Made by a program: the position numbers and the translations under genes
Assembly (NCBI GenBank): GCA_903906615.1
Contig: CAIVKT010000016.1
Span: forward strand, 1 to 10,252
From: an uncultured Bacteroidota bacterium
Lineage (GTDB): Bacteria; Bacteroidota; Bacteroidia; Chitinophagales; Chitinophagaceae
DNA: 10,252 nt
Direction: 5' to 3'
Part shown: positions 1 to 9,143 of the stretch, one piece after another
Position numbering within the stretch: the first letter of the stretch is position 1
Layout of the letters: every line of letters starts with the position of its first letter
Notes under the pieces: model-generated
The model's input: the letters and a program-made list of their open reading frames with translations, nothing else
What the model was told of the DNA's origin: nothing
Databases searched by the model: none

Positions 1-329
1 CAGGCAATGTGTTCTTTAATGTGAACAGCAAGAACTTTACTGTCACCTTCAATTCTTCTTCCCCTGTATCGCCTACGGGTGTGCAGCCTGTGGCTACAGC
101 GAGCAAGGATGTGAAAGTATATCCTGTTCCTGCAAAGAATACCCTGCATGTATCATCAACCTCTGCTATGACCGCTGAAGTGTACAACACTGTAGGCCAG
201 AAAGTATGGGCAGGCAACGTGAATGGCCAGGTGGATATTGCTATCGGAACATGGGCAAAGGGCATGTACTACATGCAACTGCTGGATGAGGATAACAATA
301 TAGTTGTGAAGAAATTTATTGTAGAATAA
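1..329 (+). CDS. Secreted protein, C-terminal end with T9SS type A sorting domain (5' truncated)
   Basis: Only the last ~108 codons lie in the window; the open frame runs in from the left edge, so the start is not visible. The final ~75 residues form a Por secretion system C-terminal sorting domain: a KVYPVPAKNTLHV strand (the usual 'vYPNPa.d.l.v' motif with V replacing N), then AEVYNTVGQKVW, then GTWAKGMYYMQLL, ending in KKFIVE just before TAA. In Bacteroidota this domain directs a Sec-exported protein through the type IX outer-membrane translocon, after which it is cleaved and the cargo is released or attached to the surface. The preceding Ser/Pro-rich stretch (SSSPVSPTGVQP) looks like a linker. 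The catalytic or adhesive part lies outside the window, so the function of the mature protein cannot be stated. Transcription probably ends at the hairpin at 354-383. Confidence 0.88.
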   Translation, partial: GNVFFNVNSKNFTVTFNSSSPVSPTGVQPVATASKDVKVYPVPAKNTLHVSSTSAMTAEVYNTVGQKVWAGNVNGQVDIAIGTWAKGMYYMQLLDEDNNIVVKKFIVE

Positions 330-2997: not shown

Positions 2998-4059
2998 ATG
3001 GAAGTAGAATTTCGGTTAACACGGGAAGATTATTATAAAGAGATTAGGCGTACCATCGTTAACCGCCATGGTGTTCGCAAAATATATTTTGTCTGTTTTG
3101 TTTGTCTTTTTTCACTCACTAATGGTAATGGCTCGACACCAAATAGCGTTGCAATGTTTTTTAGGTTCTTATGCTTATTCTCCCTGTCAACCATATGCGT
3201 TTATTTTATACCGTACTTATTGGCTATGAGGAAAGCGAGAAAAGCATTTGTAGAAAAGCCATCATTATTAGAAAAGAAAAAGATATTGTTGCGCGACGAT
3301 GAGTTTGAAGTGCAATCAGCTAAGGAAAATGGGAAAAGAAGTTACAGTATTACTAGTGCCTCGATGATGGAGGATTATATAAGAATTGATGTGCCGGGGG
3401 TAAATTCTTACCTGATACCTAAAAGTGCATTTTCAGACAGGAACGATGCTGCTAATTTTTTTGAAAAACTGAGTAGGGGAATTGCAAAATATAGACCCGG
3501 AGTAAAAGTGCAGAACAAACCTTATGTGACTAAGAATCCACGTAGAATGTATTATTGGGGACTTCTGGGACTTGTTCCTATGGTTGGTTTTTTTGCAGGG
3601 ATTGTGCTAATACTGCGCGGCATATTTGATTTTAAAGACAAGTGGATGGTATTCATTGGAGTTGGTGGTATCTCGTTCACAGTATTGGTGTATAGTTGCC
3701 TGGTAAATGTTACAGGAAGTAGTCCGTTGTTCAGGCAGAATTACATAATGATTACCAATAGTCAGATGAATACTTTGGTGAAGGGTATAGAATTTTACAA
3801 AATTCAGAACGGTGTTTACCCGGATAGTTTGCAGCAGGTAACAAAACAAGAAGCATTTACATCCATCTATGATCCATTCTTGTTTAATACTGGTAAACAA
3901 AAAGCAGGCATATTCCACTACCAAAACCTTGGTAACAAATACACGTTATTCTCTGTAGGCCCCGATGGCCTGCCTAATACTGCTGACGATATTTACCCAA
4001 ACCTGAAGATCAATGATACCAGCAAGTGCGGGTTGGTGATTAACAGGGCTGGGCAATGA
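2998..4059 (+). CDS. Membrane protein with YcxB-like N-terminus and GspG-like C-terminal domain
   Basis: In this 353-residue protein, residues 1-160 resemble YcxB-like proteins: MEVEFRLTREDYYKEIRR, one or two membrane segments (about 28-42 and 53-76), then a small beta region ending in SYLIPKSAF, the family's usual close. Two further helices follow (about 185-208 and 216-238). Residues ~250-335 resemble the globular part of type II secretion pseudopilin GspG: LVKGIEFYKIQNGVYPDSLQQV, YDPF, HYQNLGNKYTLFSVGPDG, PNTADDIYP. In GspG the last segment forms a calcium-binding loop, and its Asp residues are present here. There is no prepilin leader, and the domain sits after a transmembrane helix, so it is unlikely to be a pilin subunit and is more likely a membrane-anchored periplasmic domain. 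No secretion genes are nearby. Codon use is more AT rich than in neighbouring genes. The function is not known. Confidence 0.8.
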   Translation: MEVEFRLTREDYYKEIRRTIVNRHGVRKIYFVCFVCLFSLTNGNGSTPNSVAMFFRFLCLFSLSTICVYFIPYLLAMRKARKAFVEKPSLLEKKKILLRDDEFEVQSAKENGKRSYSITSASMMEDYIRIDVPGVNSYLIPKSAFSDRNDAANFFEKLSRGIAKYRPGVKVQNKPYVTKNPRRMYYWGLLGLVPMVGFFAGIVLILRGIFDFKDKWMVFIGVGGISFTVLVYSCLVNVTGSSPLFRQNYIMITNSQMNTLVKGIEFYKIQNGVYPDSLQQVTKQEAFTSIYDPFLFNTGKQKAGIFHYQNLGNKYTLFSVGPDGLPNTADDIYPNLKINDTSKCGLVINRAGQ

Positions 4060-4375: not shown

Positions 4376-4414
4376 CCGCCTAAATATCCCTTCTTGATAG
4401 ACGATAAACGCTCC

Positions 4415-5341
4415 ATGTTCCGAAACCGGCTGCTGAAGGTGTACAAGCACTACAGCAAGATAGCGCGCAAGCAGAATATTGCCTGCTTCCGGTTCTATGA
4501 CCACGACCTGCCCGAATTTCCCTTTGCCATAGATTGGTACAATGGAGTAGTGCATGCCGCAGAATACAAGCGCCGCCACGGCATGGAGGATGCCGAGCAT
4601 GAGGTGTGGCTGCAAAGCTGCAAGGAGGTGCTGGCCGCAGTGCTGGAAATACAGCCAGACAATATATTCATGAAGATACGACAGCGCAAGGCTGGCCGCC
4701 AGGGGCAATACGAGAAGTTTGACGAGCAAAAGGTAGAGCGGATAGTACCGGAGAATGGCCTCAGCTTTATCATCAACCTAACGGATTACCTGGATACGGG
4801 GCTGTTTCTTGATCACCGCATTACCCGTGGTATGGTGCGCGAGGAGGCTAAGGGGATGAACGTATTGAACCTGTTTTGCTACACAGGTTCGTTTAGTGTG
4901 TACGCAGCCGCAGGTGGCGCAGCAACGGTAACGTCTGTTGACCTTTCCAAAACGTACCTCAACTGGGCCAAGCGCAATATGCAGTACAACAAGCTGTATA
5001 AAGACACCCAGCACGATTTTATACATGGCGATGTGATAGAGTGGCTCAACTTTATGCCTGCCGATGCCTATGATATTATAGTCTGCGATCCGCCCACATT
5101 TTCCAACAGCAAGCGCATGGAAGACAACTTTGATGTGCAGCGCGACCATGTGGCCCTCCTCAAAAAGCTACTGAAGGGCTGCACAGAAACGGGCAAAATA
5201 TACTTCAGTAACAACTACAAAGACTTCGTCCTCGACCGCGACAGTATACCCGCGACCGTGGTAAAAGACATCACCGGGCAAACCACCCCGTTCGATTTCC
5301 AGGGAAAGCTGCACAGGAAGTGTTATGTGATTGAGAAATGA
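4415..5341 (+). CDS. Class I SAM-dependent methyltransferase, RlmK-like (23S rRNA m7G type)
   Basis: The 308 residues correspond to the C-terminal half of RlmKL, the bifunctional 23S rRNA methyltransferase. In order: FRNRLLKVYKHYSKIARK, CFRFYDHDLPEFPFAIDWY, QYEK, the very typical NLTDYLDTGLFLDHRITR (121-138), SAM motif I LNLFCYTGSFSVYAA (151-165), acidic motif II SVDLSKTYLNWAKRN (174-188), and the catalytic-type motif DPPTFSNSKRM (225-235) followed by VQRDHVALL. RlmK in E. coli makes m7G2069 in domain V of 23S rRNA; this protein probably methylates rRNA, but the exact position is inferred. The RlmL (THUMP plus m2G) half is absent. A TTG at 4394 could add 7 residues; the ATG at 4415 is preferred because homologues begin at the F.NRL segment. 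Confidence 0.9.
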   Translation: MFRNRLLKVYKHYSKIARKQNIACFRFYDHDLPEFPFAIDWYNGVVHAAEYKRRHGMEDAEHEVWLQSCKEVLAAVLEIQPDNIFMKIRQRKAGRQGQYEKFDEQKVERIVPENGLSFIINLTDYLDTGLFLDHRITRGMVREEAKGMNVLNLFCYTGSFSVYAAAGGAATVTSVDLSKTYLNWAKRNMQYNKLYKDTQHDFIHGDVIEWLNFMPADAYDIIVCDPPTFSNSKRMEDNFDVQRDHVALLKKLLKGCTETGKIYFSNNYKDFVLDRDSIPATVVKDITGQTTPFDFQGKLHRKCYVIEK

Positions 5342-5930: not shown

Positions 5931-6503
5931 TTGTCTATAGCTTTGGCATATACTACAGGTCATGCCAGTGAGCTTGAGCAGCTCATCCAGGGGTGTATTC
6001 GCAACGAGCGCGCTGCACAGGAGAAGCTATACCATTTATTTTACCCGAGAATGATGGCGTTGGTGCGCAGATATATAGACCAGGAGATGCAGGCGGAAGA
6101 GGTATTGAATAATGGCTTTTTAAGAGGATTTCAGAAGATAAAGCAATATAATTTCCAGGGTTCGTTCGAGGGTTGGCTGCGCAAGATCGTATTTCATGCT
6201 GTGGCCGACTATGTGAAGCAGAACGCACGTTATTCATCGAATATAGTGCTGGTGGAGAAAGATGAGCTGGTGCATAAGGACCATGCTGATAAATTGTATT
6301 ACGACCAACTGATAGAACTGGTGCAGATGCTGCCGGATGCCACGCGAACGGTTTTTAATATGTACGTAATGGAAGGCTTTACGCACAAAGAGATCGGGAA
6401 TATACTGGGCATAAGCGAGGGTACATCGAAGTGGCATTTATCGGAAGGGAGAAAGGTGTTGAAGGAAAAAATAGAAAAACTGGAATTGCATTTTAAGATA
6501 TAG
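5931..6503 (+). CDS. ECF-type RNA polymerase sigma-70 factor
   Basis: This 190-residue protein has normal length for an ECF sigma factor. Region 2 (about residues 25-97) runs from RNERAAQEKLYHLFYPRMMALVRRY through EEVLNNGFLRGFQKIKQY to GSFEGWLRKIVFHAVADYVK, binding core polymerase and the -10 element. Region 4 (about 125-182) holds LVQMLPDATRTVFNMYVMEGFTHKEI and the helix-turn-helix GNILGISEGTSKWHLSEGRK that reads the -35 element. No ATG exists before region 2 (first Met pair at 41-42), so the start is a TTG, at 5931 or 5943; an in-frame TAA at 5919 bounds the choice. It is followed 33 nt later by the barrel protein gene, its likely anti-sigma factor and operon partner. Confidence 0.93.
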   Translation: MSIALAYTTGHASELEQLIQGCIRNERAAQEKLYHLFYPRMMALVRRYIDQEMQAEEVLNNGFLRGFQKIKQYNFQGSFEGWLRKIVFHAVADYVKQNARYSSNIVLVEKDELVHKDHADKLYYDQLIELVQMLPDATRTVFNMYVMEGFTHKEIGNILGISEGTSKWHLSEGRKVLKEKIEKLELHFKI

Positions 6504-6536
6504 AACTCATTTAGTAAAAAAATAAAACTTATCCAT

Positions 6537-8690
6537 ATGGATAAAAATTTCATAAACGTCGATGACCTGGTAAGGCAGCGGCTCGAAGGCAGGGAGGAGC
6601 GCGAGCCCTCCGGCGCATGGCTGAACATGCGGGAGCTGCTGGATGAAAAAATGCCACAACGCAAGGTTGTGCCGTTTTTCTGGAACCGCATGTTTGGTGC
6701 GGTAGGTATTGCGGCCCTTCTGGGCCTCATCAGCGTGGGCGGCTATGAGCTTTCCGCGTACAAAGAATTGGGGCATACCGCTCCTGTTGCTTCAGCTGCA
6801 ACAGTAGCCGCGCCAACCGGCACAGTCCATAATGATGCTACGCCTGCCGATGTGGCAACCGACCGCCGCCTGAACGCAACAGGAGTGACTGATGATGCCG
6901 CAAAACCTGCAGATGCAACAGGTGTGGCTGCGCATAAAGCAGCACATAAAAAGACAGCAACTGATAACACAAACAATACAACAACTAAACCAGCTAAAAA
7001 CAATTCACAGACTGCTACTGAAAATACAGCTACTACAGGCACAGCCCCGAGCAGGGCGACAGATAACAAAGTTGCCAATAATAATACTACTACTACAGCG
7101 CACAGCAAAAAGAATACTACAAAGCCAACCGAAACAGCTACTGCCGCTGTGGTGAAACATACTACAGCTAAGAGCGATAAGCAAAGCCAACCAGCGGCAA
7201 CAGCTGTTGCGGGTACAACTGCTGCAGCCAGCCAGCCTGTAAGCGACAATAGTAAGGTTGCAGCAACAGTAAGACACAATGATGCTATAACGCACCATAA
7301 AGCAGCCAATCGCAAGACTGGTGCGGCCTCACAGCCGGTAGTTGCGACAACAACCGCAGGCAATAGCTCAACTGCGGTAGCAGCAAATGATAAAGACGCT
7401 GTAGCTAAAACAGATAACAATACTACTGATGTGCATAACATGCCATTGAGCAGCAGCTCAACTCCTGCAAATAATGCATCTGAGTCGGTGCCGGGCAAGG
7501 TGAGTGGTAACAATATGGTTTCCAACAAGGCTTCTATACCTGTGGCTAATAGTACAGCGCCGGGCAATACTACCGGCAAGCCTGCAAACACAACAACAGG
7601 AACGGCAGGAAACGGCACACCAAAAACCGCTACTGTAGGTAAGTTGCCTAACAATACCACTGCCAACAACAGCAAGGGCAAGAGAGTGATAGAAAGGATG
7701 GTTGTATTTCAGCGTACTATTAAGACAGTAAAAACTGAGCAGAGCGAAAGCAAGTACCATATAGATACCGTATCTATAGAAACACTGACAGAAGAACTGG
7801 GAATGGCCAATCCGGCCATTAGCAATCCGGCAAATAGTGCTGCTGCTAAAAAGGGTAACCTGGGTAATATGATCAATACTACCACAGATGCAGATGGCGC
7901 AACTATACTTCCGGGTTCGGCTTCAAGCGCCACAAACGCACCGGGCGCTGCTGCCAAGACCAATGCTGCCACGAAGAATAGCGGTAGTGTATCGCCTGTT
8001 GAAAAGCTGAAAGAAGAATTTAATGATGTGAAGACAAAGGTGTCGCTTATACGCTTTGCGCCGGGCCTTACTGCCGGTATCAACAGTACTTTCTTTGGCC
8101 CTAACAGCTTTAAAGGATTCCAGTTTGGCCTCAGCGGTGAGTTGTTCTTTAACGATGACCTTGGCCTGATGGCTGAGTTTAAATACTTCCACCGCATCAA
8201 TAACGACTACCAGGTAAATGACAACTACTACAACTACCTGAATAATGGCACTAAGCAGTTGATGCTGAATTCGTACAGTTTCTCCGCGCTGCACAGCCTG
8301 GAGTTGCCGATCAGCATACGCTACAGCAAGGGCAACTTTACTTTTATTGCGGGCGGCAACATTGTATATTCATTCTCCATCAATACAGGCGCTGCTACGA
8401 TAGCATCTCCTACAGCGCCTGTGGCCACGAACTTATCGCCCGCGCAGGCTAATGATAACAAGCCGCAACTGAATGCTTCTGATTTCAATTCAAGGTTCGG
8501 CCTTGGCTACCTGTTTGGTTTTGCCTACAAGGTATCTCCGAATGTAACCCTCGACCTGCGCGATGTACAGTCGTTCTGGGACAACGCAGGATCTGCGGGC
8601 GCTAAGTCAGTATCTACACAGTTGTATAAAAGCCCTTCATTCCAGTTCTCGCTCAACTACCGCCTAGGTAAAAAGAACAGGGGGGAATAA
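6537..8690 (+). CDS. Dual membrane-spanning anti-sigma factor-like protein with outer-membrane beta-barrel
   Basis: The protein has 717 residues. Residues 1-50 form a short charged cytoplasmic segment (VDDLVRQRLEGREEREPSGAWLNMRELLDEKMPQR), one helix at about 52-72 (MFGAVGIAALLGLISVGGY) crosses the inner membrane, and about 73-486 is a Thr/Ala/Asn/Lys-rich linker broken by an ordered patch at 381-421 (RVIERMVVFQRTIKTVKTEQ... YHIDTVSIETLTEEL). Residues ~503-711 carry about eight amphipathic strands ending in FQFSLNYRL, an 8-stranded barrel of the porin/PorT-like kind. There is no cleavable signal peptide; the helix is internal. Together with the ECF sigma gene 33 nt upstream, this fits an anti-sigma factor anchored in both membranes, as described for Dma proteins of B. 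thetaiotaomicron. The anti-sigma role is inferred from position and architecture. The ATG at 6537 has an A-rich leader. Confidence 0.88.
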   Translation: MDKNFINVDDLVRQRLEGREEREPSGAWLNMRELLDEKMPQRKVVPFFWNRMFGAVGIAALLGLISVGGYELSAYKELGHTAPVASAATVAAPTGTVHNDATPADVATDRRLNATGVTDDAAKPADATGVAAHKAAHKKTATDNTNNTTTKPAKNNSQTATENTATTGTAPSRATDNKVANNNTTTTAHSKKNTTKPTETATAAVVKHTTAKSDKQSQPAATAVAGTTAAASQPVSDNSKVAATVRHNDAITHHKAANRKTGAASQPVVATTTAGNSSTAVAANDKDAVAKTDNNTTDVHNMPLSSSSTPANNASESVPGKVSGNNMVSNKASIPVANSTAPGNTTGKPANTTTGTAGNGTPKTATVGKLPNNTTANNSKGKRVIERMVVFQRTIKTVKTEQSESKYHIDTVSIETLTEELGMANPAISNPANSAAAKKGNLGNMINTTTDADGATILPGSASSATNAPGAAAKTNAATKNSGSVSPVEKLKEEFNDVKTKVSLIRFAPGLTAGINSTFFGPNSFKGFQFGLSGELFFNDDLGLMAEFKYFHRINNDYQVNDNYYNYLNNGTKQLMLNSYSFSALHSLELPISIRYSKGNFTFIAGGNIVYSFSINTGAATIASPTAPVATNLSPAQANDNKPQLNASDFNSRFGLGYLFGFAYKVSPNVTLDLRDVQSFWDNAGSAGAKSVSTQLYKSPSFQFSLNYRLGKKNRGE

Positions 8691-9056: not shown

Positions 9057-9089
9057 TTTAGTCCCTATAGCTATCGTGATGGGATTTGG
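9057..9089 (+). repeat. 33-bp degenerate direct repeat, copy 2
   Basis: This is the partner of 8856-8888; the core ATAGCTATC is conserved. Its last 9 bases run into the heptamer array that begins at 9081. Confidence 0.65.
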
Positions 9090-9143
9090 GATTTGGATTT
9101 TGGAATTTGGAATTTGGATTTTGGAATTTGGATTTTGGAATTT
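9081..9143 (+). repeat. Nine-unit heptamer tandem array
   Basis: Nine 7-bp units in unbroken phase: GGGATTT twice, then GGATTTT, GGAATTT, GGAATTT, GGATTTT, GGAATTT, GGATTTT, GGAATTT. The last part is also three copies of a 14-mer (9095-9108, 9116-9129, 9130-9143). It ends 3 bp before the stop codon of the convergent transporter gene, so it lies in that gene's 3' untranslated region. Confidence 0.9.

Follow-up and report, generated by a model that had tools for sequence, protein, structure and literature searches.

How the surface of a Bacteroidota cell tells the genome what to export is a largely open question, and it is raised by a gene pair in an uncultured member of the Chitinophagaceae (GenBank assembly GCA_903906615.1). 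We analyzed the whole of contig CAIVKT010000016.1, a stretch of 10,252 nucleotides called the window here, in which a gene for an extracytoplasmic function (ECF) sigma factor is followed after 33 nucleotides, also on the forward strand, by a gene for a 717-residue protein (Table 1). A methyltransferase gene lies upstream of the pair and a convergent Vut_1 transporter gene downstream, so that the pair looks like a two-gene operon. We consider it likely that the two proteins form a sigma/anti-sigma switch spanning both membranes, which would drive its own operon and genes of type IX secretion. A wider proposal, on which we lean slightly to the side of doubt, is that one two-membrane protein reports outer-membrane or surface-assembly state to transcription, that the sigma factor drives type IX cargo and PorP/SprF genes, and that a split three-gene counterpart exists in the same class.

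The sigma protein matched Sigma70_r2 (38.8 bits) and Sigma70_r4_2 (47.3 bits), both above the cut-offs, and its N-terminus (MSIALAY or MSVALAY) was retained in the 10 close homologs aligned. GTDB genomes were scanned with an alignment of the sigma, and the best 80 of 81 loci were taken. The relatives were 65–96% identical and came mostly from Taibaiella, Flavipsychrobacter, Chitinophagaceae, and uncultured Bacteroidetes, with few other labels. The one-chain gene stood directly after the sigma gene in 77 of these 80 loci; two of the other three end at a contig edge, and the last (L092) has a mis-set gene start. When homologs of the barrel region were sought, an IDD-type N-terminal motif was found in 112 of the best 120 of 160, which were listed and aligned. 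Since so many of the listed barrel homologs carry this motif and so many loci pair the chain with the sigma, the layout is not a product of chance.

The original prediction had described the chain as a cytoplasmic segment of about 50 residues, one inner-membrane helix, some 410 residues of linker, and an outer-membrane barrel, and most of this description held up. By hydropathy alone there is a single helix candidate, at residues 52–70 (19-residue mean of 1.83), and every 19-residue stretch scoring above 1.3 starts between residues 44 and 56. The linker is indeed a long Thr/Ala/Asn tether, of which residues 76–495 consist of 18% Ala, 17% Thr, and 10% Asn, with three aromatic or Cys residues in 420; its length had been set too low, being nearer 430 residues with a barrel that begins at about residue 504. 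A loose D[TS][ILVM][ST] pattern, corresponding to a conserved island, recurs within the tether in 47 of the 73 full-length relatives, and a loose FND[IV]K-type pattern just before the barrel in 38 of them. In the protein scan the C-terminus fell just below the cut-offs for OMP_b-brl (PF13505; E 2.5e-6, 28.2 bits, cut-off 28.7) and OMP_b-brl_2 (PF13568; E 1.3e-5, 25.8 bits, cut-off 27), while in a genome scan the same region passed the cut-off at 29.1 bits. At the profile level the barrel region also matched the Opa60 barrel (E 9.7e-5), and the full chain alone gave only a weak match to OmpW (E 0.34). The N-terminal segment matched nothing among solved structures. Two ideas about the tether were tried and rejected. 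A periplasmic ruler of fixed length fails because the distance between residue 75 and the barrel ranges from 279 to 754 residues among the 55 of 73 relatives that allowed a measurement, and O-glycosylation found no footing, the D-S/T-hydrophobic motif occurring once against 2.1 expected.

A long exported chain with a barrel could also be an ordinary porin whose first helix is a cleaved signal peptide and whose sigma neighbor is a coincidence, one of the outcomes that the original prediction had named as refuting it. Barrel-type domains do usually follow signal peptides, PF13505 and PF13568 are generic families, and the Bacteroidales relatives are named porin or PorT family protein in databases. 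However, about 51 residues precede the helix, 10 of them acidic, and mean conservation across 75 paired relatives is 0.80 for residues 1–20 and 0.74 for residues 21–40, against 0.49 for the helix. This is the reverse of what a cleaved signal peptide would lead one to expect, and it argues for a functional cytoplasmic domain. Together with the sigma synteny at 77 of 80 loci and an N-terminus homologous to those of sigma-linked one-chain proteins, it leaves the porin explanation disfavored and very improbable.

The likeness to the dual membrane-spanning anti-sigma factors of Bacteroides thetaiotaomicron (Dma, with sigma partner Das) was then examined by profile comparison with one-chain proteins of the same class. 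Of 119 genomes sampled from one order of that class, 31 gave matches to a two-sequence query, and their loci yielded 28 sigma-plus-chain pairs, the chains being 356–474 residues long. The order is Bacteroidales, since the proteins returned by a database search with one such chain included those of Bacteroides sp. 519, Bacteroides sp. 214, Candidatus Phocaeicola merdavium, and Barnesiella viscericola, the last 62% identical along the full length. In the window's family, the N-terminus (22 sequences) aligned with that of 24 Bacteroidales sigma-linked chains at an hhalign probability of 97.4 (E 1.1e-11) and with 12 database one-chain proteins, including those of Bacteroides sp. 519, Candidatus Phocaeicola merdavium, and Barnesiella viscericola, at 95.8 (E 6.9e-9). 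The barrel aligned more weakly, with 26 Bacteroidales chains at 91.6 (E 8.4e-7) and with a second set of 12 at 52.8 over 65 columns. By these comparisons the N-terminus and, less strongly, the barrel are homologous to the Bacteroidales one-chain proteins, as the idea of a Dma/Das-like layout in another lineage would have it. The linker is also as unusual as had been thought, because the 73 full-length relatives measure 561–1036 residues against the 356–474 of the Bacteroidales chains.

The same layout is described for gut Bacteroidales in the Dma2 and Reo papers (PMC13088901, PMC9308784, PMC13114119). Dma/Das shares with our pair an N-terminal anti-sigma domain, one helix, a disordered tether, a C-terminal barrel, and an adjacent ECF sigma (PMC13088901). 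It differs from the window's chain, which has a far longer tether than the Bacteroidales pairs read here (717 residues in all against 356–474), holds a conserved island in it, and belongs to a different lineage; its reported targets are NigD proteins or polysaccharide loci, where a type IX cargo regulon is predicted here. Hypervesiculation on loss is reported there for Dma2 and, as cited, for Dma1, and the class is reported to be found only in Bacteroidota (PMC13088901). EcfO-Reo of Bacteroides fragilis and Phocaeicola vulgatus is likewise an anti-sigma reaching from cytoplasm to outer membrane with its cognate ECF sigma upstream, and its sigma gene is strongly induced when active. In P. vulgatus the anti-sigma restrains its own sigma, and the two respond to envelope stress. 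EcfO-Reo differs in the triggers described, antibacterial toxins, the gut, and oxygen, and in its targets, which include nigD and lipopolysaccharide-glycan genes (PMC9308784, PMC13114119). The window chain would thus work like the Dma/Reo class and is probably a long-tether member or variant of it, the comparison with Dma1–3 and Reo being one of described layouts.

A tree of 80 sigma sequences, built without the long-branch outgroup and without one miscalled open reading frame (ORF), set 73 sigmas of the window's kind apart from seven other ECF sigmas of the same genome. Nearly all of the 73 have an anti-sigma-like partner. For the Dma/Reo class the cognate sigma is expected to belong to group ECF21; as far as the tree can speak to this, the window sigma groups with the sigmas adjoining the Bacteroidales one-chain proteins. 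A rooted version was rejected, its groups having been mixed by the long-branch outgroup.

We then asked what this sigma factor might read. An ECF-type box, CCAAC-N18-GTCT, was present upstream of the sigma gene in 78 of 78 regions, namely the window and the 77 loci with enough upstream DNA, and other spacings from 10 to 25 gave no sites except 23, which gave four. Such fixation implies that the sigma would regulate its own operon. In the window genome and nine relatives, all chosen for carrying the window's sigma, the exact CCCAAC-N18-GTCT occurred 88 times against 61 for the reversed pattern, and a control with an N21 spacer gave 31 sites against 53 reversed. No excess was seen in 32 sampled genomes of other genera (117 against 199 reversed). 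Over all 62 class-level regions, CAAC-N18-GTC was found six times against 0.4 in shuffles, and AAC-N18-GTC was found at none of the 28 Bacteroidales sigma loci, three of which have less than 40 nucleotides of upstream sequence.

Surroundings were fetched for 80 of the 88 sites, leaving out six sigma-operon boxes in other genomes and two others. With intergenic defined as having no ORF of at least 150 residues across the site, 58 of 79 distinct sites (59 of 80 by another count) were intergenic, four of them being the sigma operon itself, against 2 of 30 for the N21 control, in which 30 of 31 sites were examined (Fisher p 1e-10). Downstream of these sites, 39 first genes were obtained, and four intergenic sites within long stretches yielded none. 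Counted per family, 19 of the 39 carried TIGR04131 (type B sorting domain), 13 TIGR04183 (type A), and three were PorP/SprF, which makes up to 35 of 39; Pfam gave 19 CHU_C, 11 Por_Secre_tail, and three PorP_SprF. The 39 genes fall into 20 sequence clusters. As the same ten genomes hold 255 TIGR04131 domains, the enrichment has p ~1e-30 if 30,000–36,000 genes are assumed, and SprA is present in all ten genomes. The regulon would thus, on statistical grounds, be dominated by type IX cargo and PorP/SprF. No link between type IX secretion and a barrel anti-sigma was described in the open-licence literature searched. At one locus (L235:284-4909), a box-bearing gene for a 1541-residue type B cargo protein is followed by a 354-residue gene with a PorP/SprF-like end, resembling a SprB-SprF operon.

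In the window genome, three of the sites beyond the operon precede a type B cargo gene (C430), a gene for a 497-residue exported-looking protein without a sorting-domain tail (C75), and, at about 200 nucleotides, another ECF sigma gene (C162). In three genomes (L210, L206, and L161) the box lies ~200–225 nucleotides upstream of what is apparently the same C162-type sigma, which suggests a possible sigma cascade. In two genomes (L182 and L187) it precedes small XRE-type regulator genes.

The same switch could exist with the regulon belonging to a paralogous sigma such as C590 or C24, so that the pair would control little beyond itself. The genome does hold further related sigmas with anti-sigma-like partners (C590, C24, and C373); C590 has a near-identical CCCAAG-N18-GTCT ~195 nucleotides upstream of its called start, and a similar CAAC-N18-GTCT box stands at the relatives L048, L049, and L052. 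However, the exact box is fixed upstream of the window's own sigma, the C24 box differs (CTAAC-N18-GTCA), none was recognized at C373, and an excess of the exact pattern was seen in the 10 genomes chosen for this sigma and not in the 32 others. We regard a paralog as the owner of the regulon as unlikely.

Several results weigh against the switch and regulon that we favor. The reversed baseline is high (53 for N21), so that 88 against 61 is by itself a modest excess; a relaxed box, CAAC-N18-GTCTNNATA, was not enriched (32 against 34); and the 32 comparison genomes may themselves hold orthologs of the sigma. The window genome, which is fragmented, has five exact sites only, one being the operon itself and one lying within an ORF, and paralogous sigmas such as C590 may read the same box. 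The 39 first genes come from 40 long downstream stretches, most of them selected because an exported gene was visible. Type IX genes account for at most 35 of the 54 non-self intergenic sites, with 12 sites unfollowed, among them three before another ECF sigma and two before XRE-type regulators. As for the protein contact, mutual information between the sigma and the anti-sigma N-terminus (75 pairs) gave scattered top pairs, including helix and tether residues, and no clear contact pattern. The proposed sigma contact and barrel fold stand at the level of sequence.

With these points in mind, the favored switch can be pictured as follows. Residues 1–48 would keep the ECF sigma bound at the inner membrane, as homology and synteny suggest, with one helix through that membrane, a flexible tether through the periplasm, and a barrel in the outer membrane. 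A change of state at the outer-membrane end, such as misassembly, damage, or a bound ligand, would free the sigma. Proteolysis of the exposed tether or helix is the leading candidate for this release and a distinctly tentative one, the alternative being a conformational or pulling mechanism. Free sigma would then read CCCAAC-N18-GTCT promoters, raising its own operon along with a gene set made up largely of type IX cargo and PorP/SprF, so that outer-membrane state would be coupled to the output of surface-displayed type IX proteins.

The two-membrane anti-sigma might instead mainly sense type IX secretion itself, its barrel responding to free PorP/SprF-like partners or cargo jams in a feedback loop. 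The predicted targets, being type IX cargo and PorP/SprF, would fit, and PorP-like barrels are described as binding type B cargo (PMC9143113). Against this reading, a related system responds to envelope-damaging toxins (PMC9308784). Such anti-sigma systems also occur in species that are not known to have type IX secretion. We consider type IX sensing rather improbable as the main role and keep to an envelope-reporting switch.

The family also includes arrangements in which the parts are separate. Many related sigmas of the class-level sample have a short anti-sigma gene behind theirs; the 16 anti-sigmas looked at measure 127–294 residues, in which a tether and barrel would hardly fit. An exported-looking gene came next in 13 of the 16, several loci being near-duplicates, and the three-gene order was confirmed on longer stretches in 10 of 12. 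Seven third proteins were scanned, of which five matched OMP_b-brl_2 (four above the cut-off) and two matched nothing. From their sequences, these cassettes appear to be a split version of the window's one-chain protein. Cassettes of sigma, short anti-sigma, and separate exported barrel-type protein were seen at L323–L332. In the window genome, C590 pairs its sigma with a 403-residue chain, C24 with a chain cut by the contig end after 433 residues, and C373 with a 263-residue anti-sigma and a 432-residue exported-looking protein; neither the C590 chain nor the C373 third protein matched a Pfam family. The C-terminal part of another related anti-sigma (L058:2032-3501) is a TonB plug domain (PF07715, E 2.3e-11), and similar-looking tails were seen at L057, L059, and L060.

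FecR-type/TonB signaling passes a signal from the outer membrane to an ECF sigma by way of an inner-membrane anti-sigma. The present pair would be alike in this respect and differs in that FecR/TonB signaling needs a TonB receptor and separate chains; a Pfam scan of eight window proteins, on a contig of only 10 kb, found no TonB-dependent receptor. SigP of Porphyromonas gingivalis is, like the predicted role here, an ECF sigma controlling type IX secretion genes. It acts with the response regulator PorX, and the available parts of the sources name no anti-sigma, whereas the window sigma has an adjacent anti-sigma-like gene; its suggested motif is C(T)AAA... rather than CCCAAC-N18-GTCT, and its reported targets are mainly machinery genes (PMC7712824, PMC4800418). 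The SM6 promoters of Flavobacterium psychrophilum are also of ECF type and lie before type IX genes and one ECF/anti-sigma pair, the responsible sigma being left open in that paper (PMC9723704). The exact box before the sigma, the intergenic box set at type IX genes, and the split three-gene cassettes are, as read from sequence, what is new here.

The window is an entire contig of a 3.54-Mb genome in 757 contigs, estimated to be 86% complete. Its remaining features are included in Table 1. No Rfam family exceeded its gathering score and no tRNA was found in the window; sigma-70-type promoters (8 against 6.8 in shuffles) and terminator-like sites (9 against 4.2) were left unused.

Table 1 Features of the window and related loci; coordinates refer to the window unless a locus is named.
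Feature	Position	Strand	Basis
ECF sigma factor (Das-like), 190 residues, TTG start	5931-6503	+	Pfam, conserved start
ECF-type bipartite promoter box CCCAAC-N18-GTCT, 32 nucleotides before the sigma start codon	5871-5898	+	Conserved upstream of sigma
Putative one-chain anti-sigma with outer-membrane barrel (Dma/Reo-like), 717 residues	6537-8690	+	
Residues 1-48, conserved cytoplasmic segment MDKNxIxIDDLVRQRLxGxEExExxGAWxxMxxLLDxxMP, proposed sigma-binding domain	6537-6680	+	Alignment, conservation, homology to Bacteroidales N-termini
Residues 52-70, strongest hydrophobic helix, proposed inner-membrane span	6690-6746	+	Hydropathy scan
Residues 75-495, low-complexity Ala/Thr/Asn tether, variable in sequence and length in the family	6759-8021	+	Alignment, composition
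Residues 381-418, conserved island within the tether (K.VI.KL....R.I...DTIS)	7677-7790	+	Alignment
Residues 486-501, conserved EKLxxxFNDxK segment before the barrel	7992-8039	+	Alignment
Residues 504-711, outer-membrane-barrel-type domain, alternating-strand segments	8046-8669	+	PF13505/PF13568, Opa60 profile match, strand periodicity
Related sigma gene of the window genome with its partner, C590	L021:1639-3430		
Related sigma gene of the window genome with its partner, C24	L022:1-1913		
Related sigma gene of the window genome with its partners, C373	L023:577-3195		
Truncated protein ending in a type IX sorting domain, contig starts inside the gene	3-329	+	PF18962
Membrane protein, 353 residues, C-terminal part type II secretion pseudopilin-like	2998-4059	+	PF08334
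Stand-alone 315-residue protein whose one match is to the C-terminal half of the RlmK/RlmL methyltransferase model	4394-5341	+	
Nine tandem copies of the 7-bp unit TGGAATT between convergent genes	9080-9143		

If our reading is correct, two-membrane anti-sigmas would extend beyond gut Bacteroides to type IX secretion, and the locus would supply a one-protein sensor together with a promoter sequence and a list of targets, all directly testable in cultivable Chitinophagaceae. The split three-gene cassettes would provide a natural way to tell the sensing part of such a system from the signaling part.

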